Shown: positions 22,929-31,998 of the stretch, piece by piece
Layout of the letters: each line of letters starts with the position of its first letter
Numbering within the stretch: the stretch's first letter is position 1
Assembly (NCBI GenBank): GCA_947471985.1
Contig: CANIZL010000026.1
Coordinates: 1 to 63,404 of the forward strand
Source of the DNA: Verrucomicrobiota bacterium
GTDB lineage: Bacteria > Verrucomicrobiota > Verrucomicrobiia > Limisphaerales > UBA9464
Reading direction: 5' to 3'
Length of the DNA: 63,404 nt
Position numbers and translations under genes: made by a program
Notes under the pieces: generated by a model
Told to the model about the DNA's origin: nothing
Databases searched by the model: none
Seen by the model: the letters and a program-made list of their open reading frames with translations, nothing else

Positions 22929-22958
22929 ATTCCCTCTCTTTATTTTCCCGTTGACTTT

Positions 22959-22990
22959 TTACAACTGTAAAGACACGATTACAGAAGTAA
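22959..22990. promoter_or_regulatory. Twin BlaI-type operator over the blaI/M56 promoter
   Basis: Two dyads, TTACAACTGTAA (22959-22970) and TTACAGAAGTAA (22979-22990), have centres 20 bp apart, about two helical turns. The first contains TACA-N2-TGTA, matching BlaI/MecI operators. TTGACT at 22951-22956 could be a -35 box, and the second dyad covers the ribosome site directly before the ATG at 22994. This predicts autorepression of the operon. Confidence 0.65.
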
Positions 22991-22993
22991 CAC

Positions 22994-23404
22994 ATGACCA
23001 CACCACCCGAGCTGACCGAAGCGGAATGGGATCTTATCAAGGCCGTCTGGGAATTGGAACCCTGTCCCGCCCCCACCGTCCAGGAGCACCTCGCCCAGAC
23101 CCGGGCCTGGAGTTATTCCACGGTGCGAACACTGCTGGATCGGATGGTCGGCAAGGGACTGCTGACGGCAGAGAAGTTACGCAACCTGACGCTCTATCGG
23201 GCCGTGGTGACCCGCGAGCAGGCACAGCTCGGTGAATTGCGCTACGCGTTGAAACACGCCTTCGACGGCGCCCTGACGCCGCTGGTGCAATGCCTGCTGG
23301 ACTCCGAGAAGGTTTCGAGCCAGCAGCTTGATCAACTGGAGGCCCTGATCGCCGCCAAACGCCGGACCGCGAAACCGCGCTCCAACAAACCGCCCACCGC
23401 TTAG
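22994..23404 (+). CDS. BlaI/MecI-family transcriptional repressor
   Basis: A 136-aa winged-helix repressor of the Penicillinase_R family. LTEAEWDLIKAVWELEPC and the recognition-helix region WSYSTVRTLLDRMVGKGLL match the family well, and the C-terminal helices allow dimerisation. In BlaR1/BlaI pairs the sensor's metalloprotease triggers loss of the repressor. The next gene, 15 bp downstream, encodes an M56 peptidase, and the operator dyads upstream support autoregulation. The inducer need not be a beta-lactam here, because the sensor lacks a penicillin-binding domain. Confidence 0.92.
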   Translation: MTTPPELTEAEWDLIKAVWELEPCPAPTVQEHLAQTRAWSYSTVRTLLDRMVGKGLLTAEKLRNLTLYRAVVTREQAQLGELRYALKHAFDGALTPLVQCLLDSEKVSSQQLDQLEALIAAKRRTAKPRSNKPPTA

Positions 23405-23419
23405 CGCGCCCCGCATCCC

Positions 23420-25963
23420 ATGTCCCACCTCCTGCTCACCGCACTGAATGCCTGGGGTCACGCAGCGCTCCTCGGCGCGCTGCAGATTTCCCTGCAAGTG
23501 CTCCTCCTCACGATCGCACTCCTGCTCGTCGATGGCTGGGCCCGGCATCGCGTGCGCGCCGCACTGCGGTACGGCCTTTGGATGCTCATCGTGCTGCGTC
23601 TACTCCTGCCGCCCGGGCTGTTGTCGCCCACGAGCGTCGCGTATTGGCTGGGACCCCGCCTGACTCCGCCACGGGTGGAGCCCGCACCGGCCGCGTGGCA
23701 GGTGACCTTCTCGGAACCGCGCCCCGAATCGTCACTGCCCGTCGCCGGGATTCCGTTCCAGGCGTCCGGCCCCCCGCCCCTGACCTTCCACGCGCTGCTG
23801 TTGTTGACGTGGCTCGGCGGCGCGAGCGTGTTCGCTGGTTGGATCTGGCGGGGACAGCGGCGCGTGGCCCAACTGCTGCGCTCGGCCGGGCCCGCGCCCG
23901 CGGAACTTCAGGCGCTGCTCCGTACCGCCGCCCAGGACGTGGGACTGCGCCACCCGCCCGAACTGCGCTGGAGCCGGACCCCGCACAGCCCCGCCCTCTG
24001 CGGACTGTGGCGCCCGGTGATCGTCGTCCCCGCCACCCTGCAGCTGTCCCCCGCCGCGTGGCGCACCGTCTTCCTGCATGAGTTGATTCATCTGCAACGG
24101 CGTGACCTGTGGGCCAATGCCCTGCAGGTGTTGACCCAACTCGTCTGGTGGTGGAATCCACTCGTGTGGTGGACCCACGCCCGCATCCGGCAATTGCGCG
24201 AGACCGCGGTCGATGAAGCCGTGATGCTGTCGACCAATCCGGAAACCAGCGACTACCCCGCCACGCTCGTGGCAATGGCCCGGCACTGTCTCGTCCGCCC
24301 CGCGCTCACCCTGAACTTCGTCGGCATTCTGGAATCGCCCTCCCGGTTGGAACGTCGGGTGCGACGCCTGTTGGAACAACCGTTGCCGCGGACCGCGCGA
24401 CTCGGTTGGGGCGGCTGGATGATTATTCTGTTGGCCGCCGCCGGCGCCGTGCCGATGGGCTTCGATCCGCGCACTGAGGCCGCTGCGGCAGCGCCCGTCA
24501 CGGCCCCGACCAATCCCACCAAACCGACCGCAACCAAACCGCGTCCGGCGGAAGCCACCCCGACCCCGACCACCCCCCTCCATACGCGCCTCTACCAGCT
24601 CGATCCGCAGCTCGTGGCGACGAAGCTTGCCGGAGTGCTCCCGGAAAGCCTGACCGCCGCGGAACACCCCGGCCTCACTCTCCGCCGCTTCTTCCAGCAG
24701 AAGGGAATTGAATTTCCGGTCATCGTTCCGGACCCACCCGCCCAGGATCCCCAGCGGGCCACGGAAAACCCGACCCTGTCCCAGCAGGGCGCAAATCCGG
24801 CCTTGTTCTACGAGGACAGCGGACGACTTTTTGTTCGCCACACCCCGGCCGCGCTGGACATGCTGAACGAGATCCTCCAGCCCCTGGTCGCGCCCGACCC
24901 GCCGGGTTCGGCGGCGACGTCCCCCTCGGCCCCGCCCGCTCTGCCGGCCGCACCCGGCACGCTCGTGACCCGCACGTACCGGCTGGACGCCGTCGCCTTG
25001 GTGCGACTCTTGAACGAGGCATCCAACGAGCCCATTCCCGCGGGACAGGACGTGGTGCAGACCCAATTCAAGCGCTTCCTCCGCCGGCTCGGACTGAACA
25101 TTCCCTTGAGCGTCCCCGATGGGCCGGCTTTGGCGGATTTTCCCGCTGCCTTCATCAACACCAATACCGCCATACTCTTCGTCCGCGCCTCCGCGGCGGA
25201 TCAAGCTCGCTTGGAGCGAACCCTCCAACGCCTCAACCAGCAACCCGCGCAGATCACGCTCGAATGCCGTTTTGTGGAGGGCGGTATCGACAGCGTGACC
25301 CGCTTGAATCTCGATTGGGAAACTCCGAAAACAACCAATGGCAGCCCCCACCCGGCGGCACCGCAGGTCCGCTTGACCGCCGCCGCCACGGCCGAGTTGA
25401 TCCAGCAATTGGAAGCTTTTCCGGATATCGAAATCCTATCGACGCCCAAGGTCACGACCCTCTCGGACCGTGCCGCGCAAATTTTCGTCGGTGACACCAA
25501 AACCGTCGTGATCGGCCAGTCCAACTCCGCCGCCGGACCCGTCACCCTCACCCAGCAAATCGCGACCGGTCCGTCCGTGGAGCTTCTGGTGGTCTCCGAT
25601 CCTCAACAGCCCACGCTGATGCGCGTCACCGCCTCGGGACAGGTGGTGGAATTCCTGGGCTATGAAGAAGCGCCCAACCCGAAGCCGCTGATCCGAACGA
25701 ATTCAGCGCAAGGAATCGCCCGGCTACGGGATGGTCAGACGCTGGTCCTGCAGTTGCCGGCGATTACCAACACCGTCCAGATGGTCGACCGGGTACCGTA
25801 TCTCTCGGATATTCCCCTCGTCGGACGCCTCTTCACCAGTCGCAGCTCGGGGTCGGTAGTGCGCCAACGTCTGGTCCTGGTGACCCCGATGCTGATCGAT
25901 GCCGCGGGAAACCGGATTCGCGATCCGGAGCACAAACTCTTCGATCCGGCGATTCTTCCGTAA
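23420..25963 (+). CDS. M56 (BlaR1-type) membrane metallopeptidase fused to a secretin-like domain
   Basis: An 847-aa fusion. Residues 1-355 are BlaR1-like: hydrophobic helices near 12-38, 47-65 and 120-142, zinc motif HELIH at 220-224, a downstream ETAVDEAVM that may supply the third ligand, and another helix near 334-352. A Thr/Pro/Ala linker follows. The rest is secretin-like: two N-domain-type repeats (each with LFVRHTPA- or ILFVRASAA-like strands), ITLECRFVE, then IEILSTPKVTT and VPYLSDIPLVGRLF, the conserved C-terminal secretin signature. Classical BlaR1 carries a penicillin-binding sensor there. The predicted periplasmic secretin-like part may sense an envelope or secretion signal. Confidence 0.88.
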   Translation: MSHLLLTALNAWGHAALLGALQISLQVLLLTIALLLVDGWARHRVRAALRYGLWMLIVLRLLLPPGLLSPTSVAYWLGPRLTPPRVEPAPAAWQVTFSEPRPESSLPVAGIPFQASGPPPLTFHALLLLTWLGGASVFAGWIWRGQRRVAQLLRSAGPAPAELQALLRTAAQDVGLRHPPELRWSRTPHSPALCGLWRPVIVVPATLQLSPAAWRTVFLHELIHLQRRDLWANALQVLTQLVWWWNPLVWWTHARIRQLRETAVDEAVMLSTNPETSDYPATLVAMARHCLVRPALTLNFVGILESPSRLERRVRRLLEQPLPRTARLGWGGWMIILLAAAGAVPMGFDPRTEAAAAAPVTAPTNPTKPTATKPRPAEATPTPTTPLHTRLYQLDPQLVATKLAGVLPESLTAAEHPGLTLRRFFQQKGIEFPVIVPDPPAQDPQRATENPTLSQQGANPALFYEDSGRLFVRHTPAALDMLNEILQPLVAPDPPGSAATSPSAPPALPAAPGTLVTRTYRLDAVALVRLLNEASNEPIPAGQDVVQTQFKRFLRRLGLNIPLSVPDGPALADFPAAFINTNTAILFVRASAADQARLERTLQRLNQQPAQITLECRFVEGGIDSVTRLNLDWETPKTTNGSPHPAAPQVRLTAAATAELIQQLEAFPDIEILSTPKVTTLSDRAAQIFVGDTKTVVIGQSNSAAGPVTLTQQIATGPSVELLVVSDPQQPTLMRVTASGQVVEFLGYEEAPNPKPLIRTNSAQGIARLRDGQTLVLQLPAITNTVQMVDRVPYLSDIPLVGRLFTSRSSGSVVRQRLVLVTPMLIDAAGNRIRDPEHKLFDPAILP

Positions 25964-28672: not shown

Positions 28673-28705
28673 CCTCGTTGAATTGATTATAACAATTCAG
28701 CGAGG
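28673..28705. terminator. Convergent hairpin terminator
   Basis: A 13-bp stem (28673-28685 with 28693-28705, one G-T mismatch) and 7-base A/T loop sit between the H1-like gene and the convergent kinase gene, overlapping the kinase stop codon. There is no clear T run, but the position suits termination of both transcripts. Confidence 0.7.
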
Positions 28706-31700
28706 CTGGGCTTCAGGGATCTGGTTTTCTCGCTGGTTCCGTACCGCGATTAATTCGGCTTCTAGAAATTCGTACGCGCCATCCCACCCGATGACGAGGC
28801 ACCGGCCGTCTGGGGAGAAACTGATCCAGTGTACGTTTTGAAGCATCTCTCTGGTCAGTAACAAGAAGCCGGTATTAGCATTCCAAATTCTCAGACTTCT
28901 ATCCTCAGCTCCTGAGACTATTGTCTTGCCGTCTGGAGAATAAGCGAGTGCCACCACCTCTCCTCCGTGTCCTATTAATTCAGCGTTAATATTTTTGGAA
29001 TCAACATCAATCAAGGTAATTGAACCAGAAATATCCCCGACTGCCAAGGTATGGCCGTCCGGTGAAAACGCCATTGCGGTTGAATCGCGCACCACCAGTG
29101 GAGTTGGCATTTTGTCACCCATCCGCCAGGTACAAACACCAAGGGCAGACATAAATGCAATTCGTGAACTATCTTTAGTAAATGTAAAAAACGACGCATT
29201 TGTGCAAAATGGATAACCTACGCTGGAGCTTTCTAAATCAATCAACGCCCACCGTTTTTCCGATGTTTTGCTAACCAAAAACCGCTCATCCGGGGTAATC
29301 CGATCCCAATCGTAGTGGTGTTTTTCCCCGGGGAGTTCGAGCGGAGAGGTTTTCCCAGTTTGCAGTTCCAATCGACCCAAATCCCCGGATTCCATCCAAT
29401 ACAGGACTTGGGAATTCGAGTTAACAATCCCAAAGGGAAGCCCGTCCGCCACATACTTCACGGTTTTCGAAGGTAAGGAGACAACACAGAAATTATTGCT
29501 CCTCCGGGAGTACTCGGAGGGGAGGGCCACATGGCGGGAGTCCTTGGAAAAGACCGGGGCAGGAATGTTAAACCGCGCCAAATCATTCGTAATCCGGAAA
29601 TTGCCCGGCGGTTTTCGGGTATCCCACAGTCGGATCGTGCCGTCCTGACTGGCGCTTACCAAGGAGTGCGCGTCCCCCAGAAATGCCAAACCGGTCAACT
29701 CCCCGCGGTGCCCCGGATATCGGGCCAGCACTTCCCCGGAGACCGCATCACAGACCGCCACCCGGCGATCCGCCCCATGCTTGATCGCCATTCGAGTGCC
29801 GTCTGCAGTAAATGCCAACGCGGGCCGCGTGACCGACCACGGTAGCCGGTAGAGCGGCTCAACCGGATTCGTCGTCGACACCAATGCCTCCGCAAGAGCA
29901 TAGCCCTCGAAATAGCCACGGATGTCATCGAGCCAAACCCGTTGGTGATCTGGAGAGAACGCGGCGAAATCCGTGAAATGGGTCCGCCTCCAAACCGGGC
30001 CCGGCACCTGTCCCGGAATCCATTGGTTCAACTGACCTCGCGATCCCAAAACCCAGAGGGTCTCATCGCCCCCGGACGCCGGCCGGGTCCACTGAAGCCC
30101 CGGCCCTCCATTCGTTTCCAGACGATGCAGCACCCGTTCCGTGGCCAGTTGCAAAACACCCACCGCCACCGGGGCATCCATGCTGATTTCCCAATTCACC
30201 GACGAAAAAGCCAGCCGCGTTCCATCGGGTGAGAACGCCAGTATGTTGGCCGGTTCGGTCAGCAGGCTGCGTGGGGGCTGCTGGCCTTGGTAAAGCACCG
30301 CACCCGACAACGTGCCCAACACAATTCCCGATCCATCCGGCGAAAAAGCCAGCATGCGGCTCCCGGTGCCTTCGTTGGCCACCGGCCAGACCTTCAGCGT
30401 CACCCCGTTCGAAACGGCAATCACTCGCAGTTCCTGCGGCAACAGCACCGCCAGGCGATCGCCCGACGCCGACGCCGCGAGCGCCTGGATCGCATTCGTG
30501 CTCGACCACACAATGCGTTCCTCCTGGCCCCGCAGCTCGTGCTGCAAGTGATACCACTCCCAGCCGCGCAGATCCGCATCGCCCGGGCGCGGGACAACTC
30601 CGGCCAGCAACCGGTCCGCCTGTGCAAAATCCCCTTCGGTGCGGGCCCGTTCCGCGAGGTTGATGCTCATCGCGTACCGCTGTCGTTCCGATTCCGCCCG
30701 CAACCGGTTTTCCTTCACCCGGGCTTGCTCCTTTTGTCGTCCGTACAAAAATCCCGCGCCGATCAGTGTGGCCATCAACAAGGCGGCCGCCGCCACCAAT
30801 CCCGCCGCCGCCGGGCGTCGCCGGGCCCAGCGCCAGGCGCGTTCCGGGAGTCCGGCGGGGCGGGCGTGAATCGGCTCGTCCCGTAAAAAACGCTGCAAAT
30901 CCTCCTGCAGGGCCGCGGCATCCGGATATCGCTGCCCGGGGGCCTTCGCGAGACATTTGAGACAGATCGTCTCGAGATCGCGCGGCACCGAGGGATTCAA
31001 AATCCGCGGCGAAAGTGGTTCCTGTCGGACCACCAGGTTCAAGGTGGCCGGCACCGTGGACGCCTGCAGCGGCGGGCGGCCCGTCAACGCGTGATACAGA
31101 ATCGCGCCCAAGCCATAAACATCCGCCGGCACACCCACGCGGTCCGTGTCCCCCAACACCTGCTCGGGCGCCATGAAGCAGGGGGATCCCAGGACCTCCC
31201 CCGTGCTCGTGATCTCCGATTTCCGATCCAGTCGTTTGGCGAGACCGAAATCCGTGACCCGGGCCCGGCCGGTGCGATCCACGAGTACATTCGCCGGTTT
31301 GAGATCACGATGCAGGATGCCGTGGGTGTGGGCGAAGTGCACCGCTTCGGCCACTTCCGACAACCAGGCCGCGGCCTCACGCGGTGGTGGCGGTTGTCGA
31401 TTCACCCGCTGGGCCAGATTCTCCCCGGCCACATATTCCATCGAGAAGAAGTGGTGACCTTCGTGCTCCCCGATTTCGAAGATCCCCACAATCCCCGGAT
31501 GCTGCAAACGGGCCGCCGCCGCCGCCTCCGTGCGGAAGCGTTCCACGAAAGCCGGGGAGGAGAACTCGCCGTACAGCAGGAGTTTTACCGCCACCAATCG
31601 ATCCAGGGACGTTTGCCGGGCCAGGTAAACGATTCCCATGCCGCCCCGGGCGAGTTCGCCGACCAGTTCATAGTCGCCGAAATAGCGGAGCTGTGCGGGA

Positions 31701-31876
31701 GGTTCGGGCAGGCGTTGGCCGTTCCATTCCGTCGCCCCGCTCCCGGACTTCAAGGGCTCCTCGGGCAGTGCATCGCCCAACGCCGATTCCAGCAGGCATA
31801 CCGGACAGAGCGCCTCCGGTCGGGTACCGGAAATGACACCCCCACAACGGGGACAAGTCCGCGGGGTGGCAGCCAT
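28697..31876 (-). CDS. Hanks-type Ser/Thr kinase with zinc ribbon and WD40 propeller
   Basis: A 1059-aa membrane kinase. Residues 8-27 hold a zinc ribbon (CPRCGG and CPVC). The kinase domain (about 66-335) has GELARGGMGIVYL, the VAVK lysine, HRDLKPANVL and DFGLAK, so it should be active. One membrane helix (AAGLVAAAALLMATLIGAGF) follows, then an outer region with WD40-type repeats such as YPGHRGELTGLAFLGDAHSL and SPDGKTIVSGAEDRSLRIWN. ATG 31876 starts the zinc ribbon cleanly; the frame is open back to 31921. Similar in design to the kinase at 35856. Confidence 0.88.
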   Translation of the reverse strand: MAATPRTCPRCGGVISGTRPEALCPVCLLESALGDALPEEPLKSGSGATEWNGQRLPEPPAQLRYFGDYELVGELARGGMGIVYLARQTSLDRLVAVKLLLYGEFSSPAFVERFRTEAAAAARLQHPGIVGIFEIGEHEGHHFFSMEYVAGENLAQRVNRQPPPPREAAAWLSEVAEAVHFAHTHGILHRDLKPANVLVDRTGRARVTDFGLAKRLDRKSEITSTGEVLGSPCFMAPEQVLGDTDRVGVPADVYGLGAILYHALTGRPPLQASTVPATLNLVVRQEPLSPRILNPSVPRDLETICLKCLAKAPGQRYPDAAALQEDLQRFLRDEPIHARPAGLPERAWRWARRRPAAAGLVAAAALLMATLIGAGFLYGRQKEQARVKENRLRAESERQRYAMSINLAERARTEGDFAQADRLLAGVVPRPGDADLRGWEWYHLQHELRGQEERIVWSSTNAIQALAASASGDRLAVLLPQELRVIAVSNGVTLKVWPVANEGTGSRMLAFSPDGSGIVLGTLSGAVLYQGQQPPRSLLTEPANILAFSPDGTRLAFSSVNWEISMDAPVAVGVLQLATERVLHRLETNGGPGLQWTRPASGGDETLWVLGSRGQLNQWIPGQVPGPVWRRTHFTDFAAFSPDHQRVWLDDIRGYFEGYALAEALVSTTNPVEPLYRLPWSVTRPALAFTADGTRMAIKHGADRRVAVCDAVSGEVLARYPGHRGELTGLAFLGDAHSLVSASQDGTIRLWDTRKPPGNFRITNDLARFNIPAPVFSKDSRHVALPSEYSRRSNNFCVVSLPSKTVKYVADGLPFGIVNSNSQVLYWMESGDLGRLELQTGKTSPLELPGEKHHYDWDRITPDERFLVSKTSEKRWALIDLESSSVGYPFCTNASFFTFTKDSSRIAFMSALGVCTWRMGDKMPTPLVVRDSTAMAFSPDGHTLAVGDISGSITLIDVDSKNINAELIGHGGEVVALAYSPDGKTIVSGAEDRSLRIWNANTGFLLLTREMLQNVHWISFSPDGRCLVIGWDGAYEFLEAELIAVRNQRENQIPEAQPR

Positions 31877-31998
31877 CTTCGGTGGGCAGGCCTGGGTCTC
31901 TCCCGTTCCGCGACCGGCCAATCATCGCCGTCGCCCCACCGCTCCGCCGGCGTAAACTCCGGCCGGAGCGGGGAGGACGGCGGACCGGTCCGGGCGGA

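Follow-up and report, generated by a model that had tools for sequence, protein, structure and literature searches.

What does a BlaR1-type membrane peptidase respond to when a secretin-like domain occupies the place of its sensor? Systems of the BlaR1 type are best known for sensing antibiotics, and the question is raised by a gene at 23420-25963, on the plus strand, of a 63,404-nucleotide stretch of DNA (the window: positions 1 to 63,404 of contig CANIZL010000026.1, assembly GCA_947471985.1) from a bacterium of the verrucomicrobial order Limisphaerales. A sequence-only reading of the gene had described an M56 antirepressor peptidase joined to a secretin-like half and had proposed that, together with the BlaI repressor encoded next door, it forms a one-operon circuit that reads an envelope or secretion signal. 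The M56–secretin fusion is confirmed as real. Moreover, we consider it rather probable that the two genes form a BlaI/BlaR1-like derepression circuit, in which the receptor owes its periplasmic sensory and assembly module to the secretin of type IV pili (PilQ, Amuc_1098 type).

A Membrane Peptidase and a Secretin Core in One Protein

The gene is a single open reading frame (ORF) of 847 amino acids with no internal stops, and its product runs from an M56 (BlaR1-type) membrane peptidase through a Pro/Thr-rich linker and two KH-like secretin N-domain repeats to a secretin core; all coordinates within the gene refer to the plus strand. The peptidase domain (residues 20-315, 23477-24364) matches Pfam Peptidase_M56 (PF05569) at E 8.5e-39, with 133.9 bits against a curated cut-off of 31. 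It contains both the HELIH zinc motif that the sequence-only reading had pointed out (residues 220-224, 24077-24091) and the EXXXD gluzincin motif (residues 261-265, 24200-24214), as this motif is defined in an excerpt of PMC9834060, and thus profile and HEXXH..EXXXD arrangement agree on membership in the M56 peptidases. Model and conservation place the last transmembrane helix (TM4, which spans roughly residues 330-342 of the full-length model), with a conserved PMG, at 24407-24460. It is followed at 24461-24574 by the Pro/Thr/Ala-rich linker, where the predicted local distance difference test (pLDDT) of the model is low, leading toward the putative periplasmic tail.

The secretin core of the tail (about residues 611-831, 25250-25912) is recognized by Pfam, phmmer, and Foldseek alike. 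Pfam Secretin (PF00263) matches residues 669-826 (25424-25897) at E 6.2e-19, with 68.6 bits against a cut-off of 27.5, and the structural matches are secretins as well, which upholds the proposed nature of the C-terminal half. The tail model obtained with AlphaFold2 from 8 sequences is of moderate quality (mean pLDDT 60.8, predicted TM-score 0.42), while the full-length model is poor (pLDDT 54); the tail model consists of two beta-alpha-alpha-beta-beta-alpha units followed by a core of long strands. Going by their titles, all 40 PDB chains that Foldseek matches at E <= 0.001 are secretins or parts of complexes that contain one, and they span type II, III, and IV systems, Tad, and phage pIV. 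Aligned with VIA-align, the tail reaches Z up to 9.8 against whole secretins, with a large root-mean-square deviation (rmsd) owing to differing domain placement, and the core alone reaches Z 8.0-8.3 (rmsd 4.2-4.9 A over 129-144 residues) against RcpA and A. caldus secretins. Among solved chains, a GspD-type secretin is nearest in sequence (phmmer, 6.7e-11), and nothing was found for the M56 half among solved structures at E <= 0.01. Profile above cut-off and predicted fold, the latter from a moderately confident model, thus both assign the core to the secretins.

The N-domain-like repeats that had been proposed in front of the core are seen as two repeat units in the structure prediction, but Pfam yields only a Secretin_N match at E 0.029, under the cut-off. 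Repeat 1 (residues 388-489, 24581-24886), delimited by the secondary structure of the model, aligns with the KH domain of 6gy4_A (Z 5.9, 67 residues). Repeat 2 (residues 515-605, 24962-25234), to which the weak Secretin_N match belongs, aligns with the N-domains of XcpQ (Z 5.0-5.4, rmsd 2.6-2.7 A, 60-63 residues) and in a comparable way with KH domains. The secretin signature likewise stands only in part. The full signature joins a GG after DGQTxxL, which is counted as part of the published signature, to VPxLGDIPxxGxLF. Compared with stand-alone secretins, the window protein has QL in place of GG (residues 778-779, 25751-25756), but the second half is retained as VPYLSDIPLVGRLF (residues 792-805, 25793-25834; pattern match).

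A true beta-lactam receptor is ruled out, as the Pfam search of the fusion protein finds no penicillin-binding domain. Similarly, family tallies give no penicillin-binding (class D-like) sensor among the matches listed for 60 M56 ORFs of the order.

Distribution of the Fusion and Its Association with blaI

The search covered 293 genomes of the order, from which 60 loci were fetched because they best matched the window protein, along with four found through the secretin half and three M56 loci of the window's own genome. A hidden Markov model of the core, built from the same fusions and secretins that it scored, matches 55 of 64 M56 ORFs (the 60 loci and the window), and 46 of these 64 have a near-complete core within the same ORF, a proportion that is not a census given the choice of loci by match to the window protein. 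These 46 full-core fusions come from 46 genomes and 14 families (family labels entered by hand), and all 46 have an intact HEXXH..EXXXD. Recurrence of the fusion in 46 genomes rules out a chance frame or an assembly artefact. The stricter Pfam Secretin profile is matched at E <= 0.001 by 39 of 60 M56 ORFs (22/30 and 17/30), and both halves were matched in seven named relatives (L042-L048). For 114 genomes from other orders of the phylum, none of the matches listed, with up to 8 candidates scored per genome, has both halves in one place, and no M56–secretin fusion was found in the titles and abstract openings listed from the open-access literature. Within this sampling, the fusion therefore looks old and order-specific.

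The adjoining repressor gene, blaI (22994-23404, plus strand), encodes a winged-helix protein of 136 amino acids and ends 15 bp before the ATG of the fusion gene. Its product matches Pfam Penicillinase_R at 9.2e-27 (94.1 bits, cut-off 22.6), which places it in the BlaI/MecI/CopY family and bears out the repressor noticed at the outset, while the NCBIfam models CopY_TcrY (7.8e-20) and BlaI_of_BCL (1.7e-17) are both matched under their cut-offs. Across the order, blaI stands immediately 5' of the fusion in 44 of the 46 full-core cases. The expectation that it always does so fails at one of the other two, L082, whose upstream stretch is L082:1-702; the sequence of the second, L085, starts at a contig end.

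The two halves are encoded apart as exceptions beside the 46 fusions, clearly in one locus and in two more (L087, L111) through what look like broken frames, so that separate genes as a general rule could be discarded. The clear case, L118 (4578-7666), has a separate tail ORF, two operators, blaI, and an M56 gene ending after TM4, in this order. By eye, the tail ORF begins like a signal peptide, which suggests that the tail lies outside the inner membrane. This split is the best evidence both for a tail that may work there and for a functional pairing of tail and peptidase.

Operator and Promoter Region

A putative operator of the BlaI/CopY type, a perfect TTTACA-AC-TGTAAA with a TACAnnTGTA core, was located by motif scan at 22958-22971, before blaI, and is the sole match in the window when up to two mismatches are allowed (chance mean 0.15). 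The exact TACANNTGTA (TACAnnTGTA) occurs within 150 bp 5' of blaI in 47 of 52 loci (shuffled mean 0.14). These 52 are close BlaI homologs (E <= 1e-40), among them a few M56 loci that lack a secretin core, and more distant BlaI genes (e.g., L126-L130) were left out of the count. A TACA/TGTA operator before the regulated operon, as is typical of the BlaI/MecI/CopY family, thus appears to be present, and its conservation speaks for the proposed one-operon circuit. It should be considered, however, that according to an excerpt of PMC7253601 TACANNTGTA alone is necessary but insufficient for CopY binding. Direct inspection shows an imperfect second operator-like palindrome, TTACAGAAGTAA, at 22979-22990, which is shared with L074. 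Several relatives have two operators each, some of them flanking TTGACA.

Comparison of the loci with an exact operator also points to a -35-like hexamer, TTGACT, at 22951-22956 on the plus strand. A TTGACA-like hexamer (up to one mismatch) lies 3-7 nt before TACA in 21 of the 47 exact-operator loci by our own count, which was used instead of the total of 32, since the latter includes operator arms. Because the operator sits right behind TTGACT, a bound repressor should block the promoter. A good -10 box was not recognized in the operator region of the window, and the scan of the window for promoters and terminators gave no plus-strand promoter and no more terminators than shuffled sequences.

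In the 6.38-Mb draft genome of the host (180 contigs), only two YTACANNTGTAR (YTACAnnTGTAR) sites occur, both at blaI-M56 operons. The other belongs to a second blaI, on contig C37, and begins 4 bp ahead of the first start codon of this gene; the M56 protein paired with it carries a carboxypeptidase-regulatory-like tail. The C37 BlaI could cross-talk with that of the window, as it has the same kind of operator. In 16 relatives, 32 YTACANNTGTAR sites were counted, 17 at blaI, 11 inside ORFs of >=250 amino acids, and 4 elsewhere (own tally). One site of the relatives (L166:2772-2830, contig G245:C91) is an extended TTTACATTTGTAAA palindrome before a GSDH/cytochrome-like gene.

Origin of the Secretin Core

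In the tree of secretin cores, the 46 fused cores lie on one side of a single branch (SH-aLRT support 96) and are nested within the order's stand-alone Amuc_1098-type secretins, the enclosing branches having supports of 98 and 96; this tree and that of the M56 domains are quick trees with several long branches. This position makes the fused core a descendant of the type IV pilus secretin that the order itself possesses (Amuc_1098/PilQ type). The host genome has an Amuc_1098-type copy of its own on contig C14, 29% identical to the tail and adjoining an Amuc_1100-like gene, and in Akkermansia Amuc_1098 is described as the outer-membrane PilQ (PMC4960237, in excerpt).

The histories of peptidase and tail appear mosaic. 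In the M56 tree, secretin tails are found on at least three peptidase lineages, namely the main one, that of L126, L128, and L129 (support 100), and that of L127, which groups with M56 proteins without a secretin core (support 98). Therefore, tail and peptidase would have been joined more than once, or swapped. Between L078 and L081 (genus g3), the share of identical third codon positions is 0.78-0.90 in the tail and 0.47-0.68 in the peptidase, with a step from 0.56 to 0.89 at codon 345, the domain border, and similarity is also high beyond the fusion (0.87-0.92 over most of BlaI; 0.94-0.98 in the downstream intergenic DNA). Recombination is not a clean reading of this pair, as the maximum chi-square split falls near nucleotide 547 (about codon 180), inside the peptidase. 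Identity between L085, of the same genus, and L081 amounts to 96-100% along the peptidase, falls to 68-78% in the middle of the core, and is 93-98% at the C-terminus. We read both patterns as probable exchange events with putative breakpoints.

Selection on the Core and Loss of Secretin Hallmarks

The ratio of nonsynonymous to synonymous substitution rates (dN/dS), estimated for 13 close pairs, is 0.20-0.49 in the core and 0.14-0.32 in the peptidase, and it is higher in the core in 13 of 13 pairs, which share members, are thus not independent, and in some cases have saturated dS. These values indicate that the core is under purifying selection and maintained. Its hallmarks have nevertheless eroded in the fusions and not in the stand-alone secretins. 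GG is retained in 11 of 46 fusions versus 27 of 27 Amuc_1098-type secretins (those with a full core among 32 matched ORFs) and all 4 other secretins of the window's own genome. The pattern P-x-L-x-D-x-P-xx-G-xx-F, which corresponds to VPYLSDIPLVGRLF, is preserved by 15 of the 46 fusions (by 21 when no leading Pro is demanded), by 27/27 Amuc_1098-type secretins, and by 3/4 of the others. For this reason, a sensing or assembling role of the tail is more probable than a pore; pore formation appears unlikely, and the comparison fits a secretin fold put to some use other than a gated pore. Short gate and lip loops were also considered as a sign of a lost pore. They measure 26 and 18 residues in the window protein and 42-55 and 35-43 in Amuc_1098-type secretins, but this argument was dropped, as the loops of the other own-genome secretins (27-37 and 19-26 residues) are close to those of the window.

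Proposed Mechanism and Alternative Explanations

The proposed circuit would start with BlaI bound to the TACAnnTGTA operator before blaI, repressing blaI and the fusion gene together. By homology with BlaR1, the M56 half would be embedded in the inner membrane, its zinc site exposed to the cytoplasm and its C-terminus to the periplasm. In BlaR1 itself, both termini are outside and the cytosol-facing gluzincin site cuts BlaI directly (PMC9834060, in excerpt). The KH-like repeats and the eroded core may together oligomerise in the periplasm as a domain that contacts a ligand of the envelope, possibly a component of a secretin, a pilus, or the wall, and the input may thus be an envelope or secretion signal, as the sequence-only reading had suggested. 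A changed assembly state of the tail would activate the peptidase, leading to cleavage of BlaI and induction of the operon. Since the genome has no other consensus operators, the primary output would be more receptor, making the circuit a self-amplifying switch. In the same way, the repression relieved would mainly be the operon's own, because the only YTACAnnTGTAR operators of the genome sit at blaI-M56 operons.

Several observations weigh against this circuit. The full-core fusion of L082 is preceded by 701 bases, and a BlaI match is absent from its entire 7.8-kb contig. As L118 demonstrates, the tail can do without fusion to M56, and the window's tail retains the VPxLxDIPxxGxLF half of the signature together with a nearly full-length core. 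Moreover, the exact TACANNTGTA is absent from 5 of 52 operons, so looser operators must exist and other targets were possibly missed, and in one relative the G245:C91 site lies 58 bp 5' of a GSDH-domain gene as a possible trans target. The last two points, with a less convincing trans candidate 300 bp before a 530-amino-acid ORF (G283:C72), would suit a rival reading in which the operon encodes an ordinary pair of sensor and repressor, and BlaI controls a distant regulon of unlinked genes (e.g., pilus or envelope genes) through diverged operators. We find this doubtful, considering that the host genome has just the two YTACANNTGTAR sites at its blaI-M56 operons and that 11 of the 15 sites away from blaI in the relatives fall inside long ORFs.

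The preserved core and VPYLSDIPLVGRLF could also indicate that the tail is a working mini-secretin, freed behind TM4 by signal peptidase or autoproteolysis and assembled into an outer-membrane ring, the M56 half only regulating its production. N-domain-like repeats do precede the core, the linker of S. aureus BlaR1 is cut by signal peptidase behind the last transmembrane helix (PMC9834060, in excerpt), and the tail of L118 is a separate, apparently exported protein. However, GG is gone from 35 of 46 fusions, including that of the window, the second signature is absent from 31 (25 with the looser pattern), and 5 of 7 aligned relatives lack the N-repeats; furthermore, the genome has five other secretin genes above the Pfam cut-off, and the genes flanking the operon are not pilus or secretion genes. 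Such a pore is thus unlikely in our view. Alternatively, the tail might be a passive dimerisation or spacer module of immaterial type, with signalling through the membrane part of M56 or through BlaI. The tails of the order's M56 proteins are indeed very variable (ExbD-like, TPR, SecDF-P1-like, YscJ-like, SLBB, thioredoxin-like, carboxypeptidase-regulatory-like, and secretin, among the matches listed), and the histories of peptidase and tail differ in some close relatives. The dN/dS of the core, the specific motifs conserved across families, and the stand-alone tail gene kept beside blaI-M56 in L118 make a passive tail improbable.

The derepression circuit with a secretin-derived sensory and assembly module may have a wider meaning, which we put forward tentatively. 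It could represent an order-wide receptor class that has converted part of the pilus export pore into the sensor of a repressor-cutting protease and monitors envelope or pilus-secretin assembly by co-assembly or competition with secretin-type partners, being self-amplifying and diversified in its tail by recombination relative to the peptidase.

Comparison with Known Systems

The operon resembles BlaR1-BlaI and MecR1-MecI of S. aureus and B. licheniformis in having an M56 metallopeptidase with HEXXH and EXXXD, a BlaI-family repressor, a TACA/TGTA operator, and, by homology, a C-terminal extracytoplasmic domain. In contrast with them, secretin N-domains and a secretin core hold the sensor position in place of a penicillin-binding sensor, and the YTACAnnTGTAR operators of this genome occur only at blaI operons. 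NCBIfam blaR1_generic gives 87.7 bits against a cut-off of 400, and, since a beta-lactam sensor is missing, the fusion should not be called BlaR1. The tail derives from a protein of the Amuc_1098/PilQ kind (PMC4960237, in excerpt), as the nesting of the fused cores among the order's orthologs indicates. Unlike Amuc_1098, it is fused behind an M56 peptidase, has no signal peptide of its own, and has lost GG; it scores 55.5 bits with the Amuc_1098 equivalog NF042912 (cut-off 750), which the C14 homolog of the same genome also fails to reach (342.7). The BlaI superfamily and the TACAnnTGTA operator are shared with CopY/CopR-type repressors and the cop box (PMC7253601, in excerpt). However, the repressor obtains 71.4 bits with CopY_TcrY against a cut-off of 121.95, the site in the window does not fit the extended 16-base RNYKACANNTGTMRNY given in the same excerpt, and the partner is a peptidase instead of a copper exporter. 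With a widespread lineage that combines a repressor-cutting chassis with a secretion-pore sensor, M56 sensing outside beta-lactam resistance becomes testable. The lineage also allows the evolution of a working pilus secretin into an eroded sensor to be followed stepwise, and its operon is compact, has a defined operator, and could be transferred to a laboratory host.

Neighbouring Genes and Other M56 Proteins

The operon is flanked by genes for a FAD-dependent oxidoreductase and, on the other strand, for a zinc-ribbon coiled-coil protein, with no sign that they belong to it. A few kb downstream, at 28697-31921 on the minus strand, a long protein has by eye a kinase-like N-terminal part and WD40-like repeats. 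In L118, a glycosyl hydrolase family 30 gene is next downstream of the split operon. The host genome has three further M56 genes, on contigs G000:C37 (L130:2834-6562), C74 (L131:696-4196), and C47 (L132:2467-4143), two with carboxypeptidase-regulatory-like tails and one short. Across the order (L074-L133), ExbD/TolR-like tails account for 8 of 60 M56 genes among the matches listed, which also include TPR, SecDF-P1-like, YscJ/FliF-like, SLBB, and thioredoxin-like tails, and several of these tails resemble ring- or machine-building parts.

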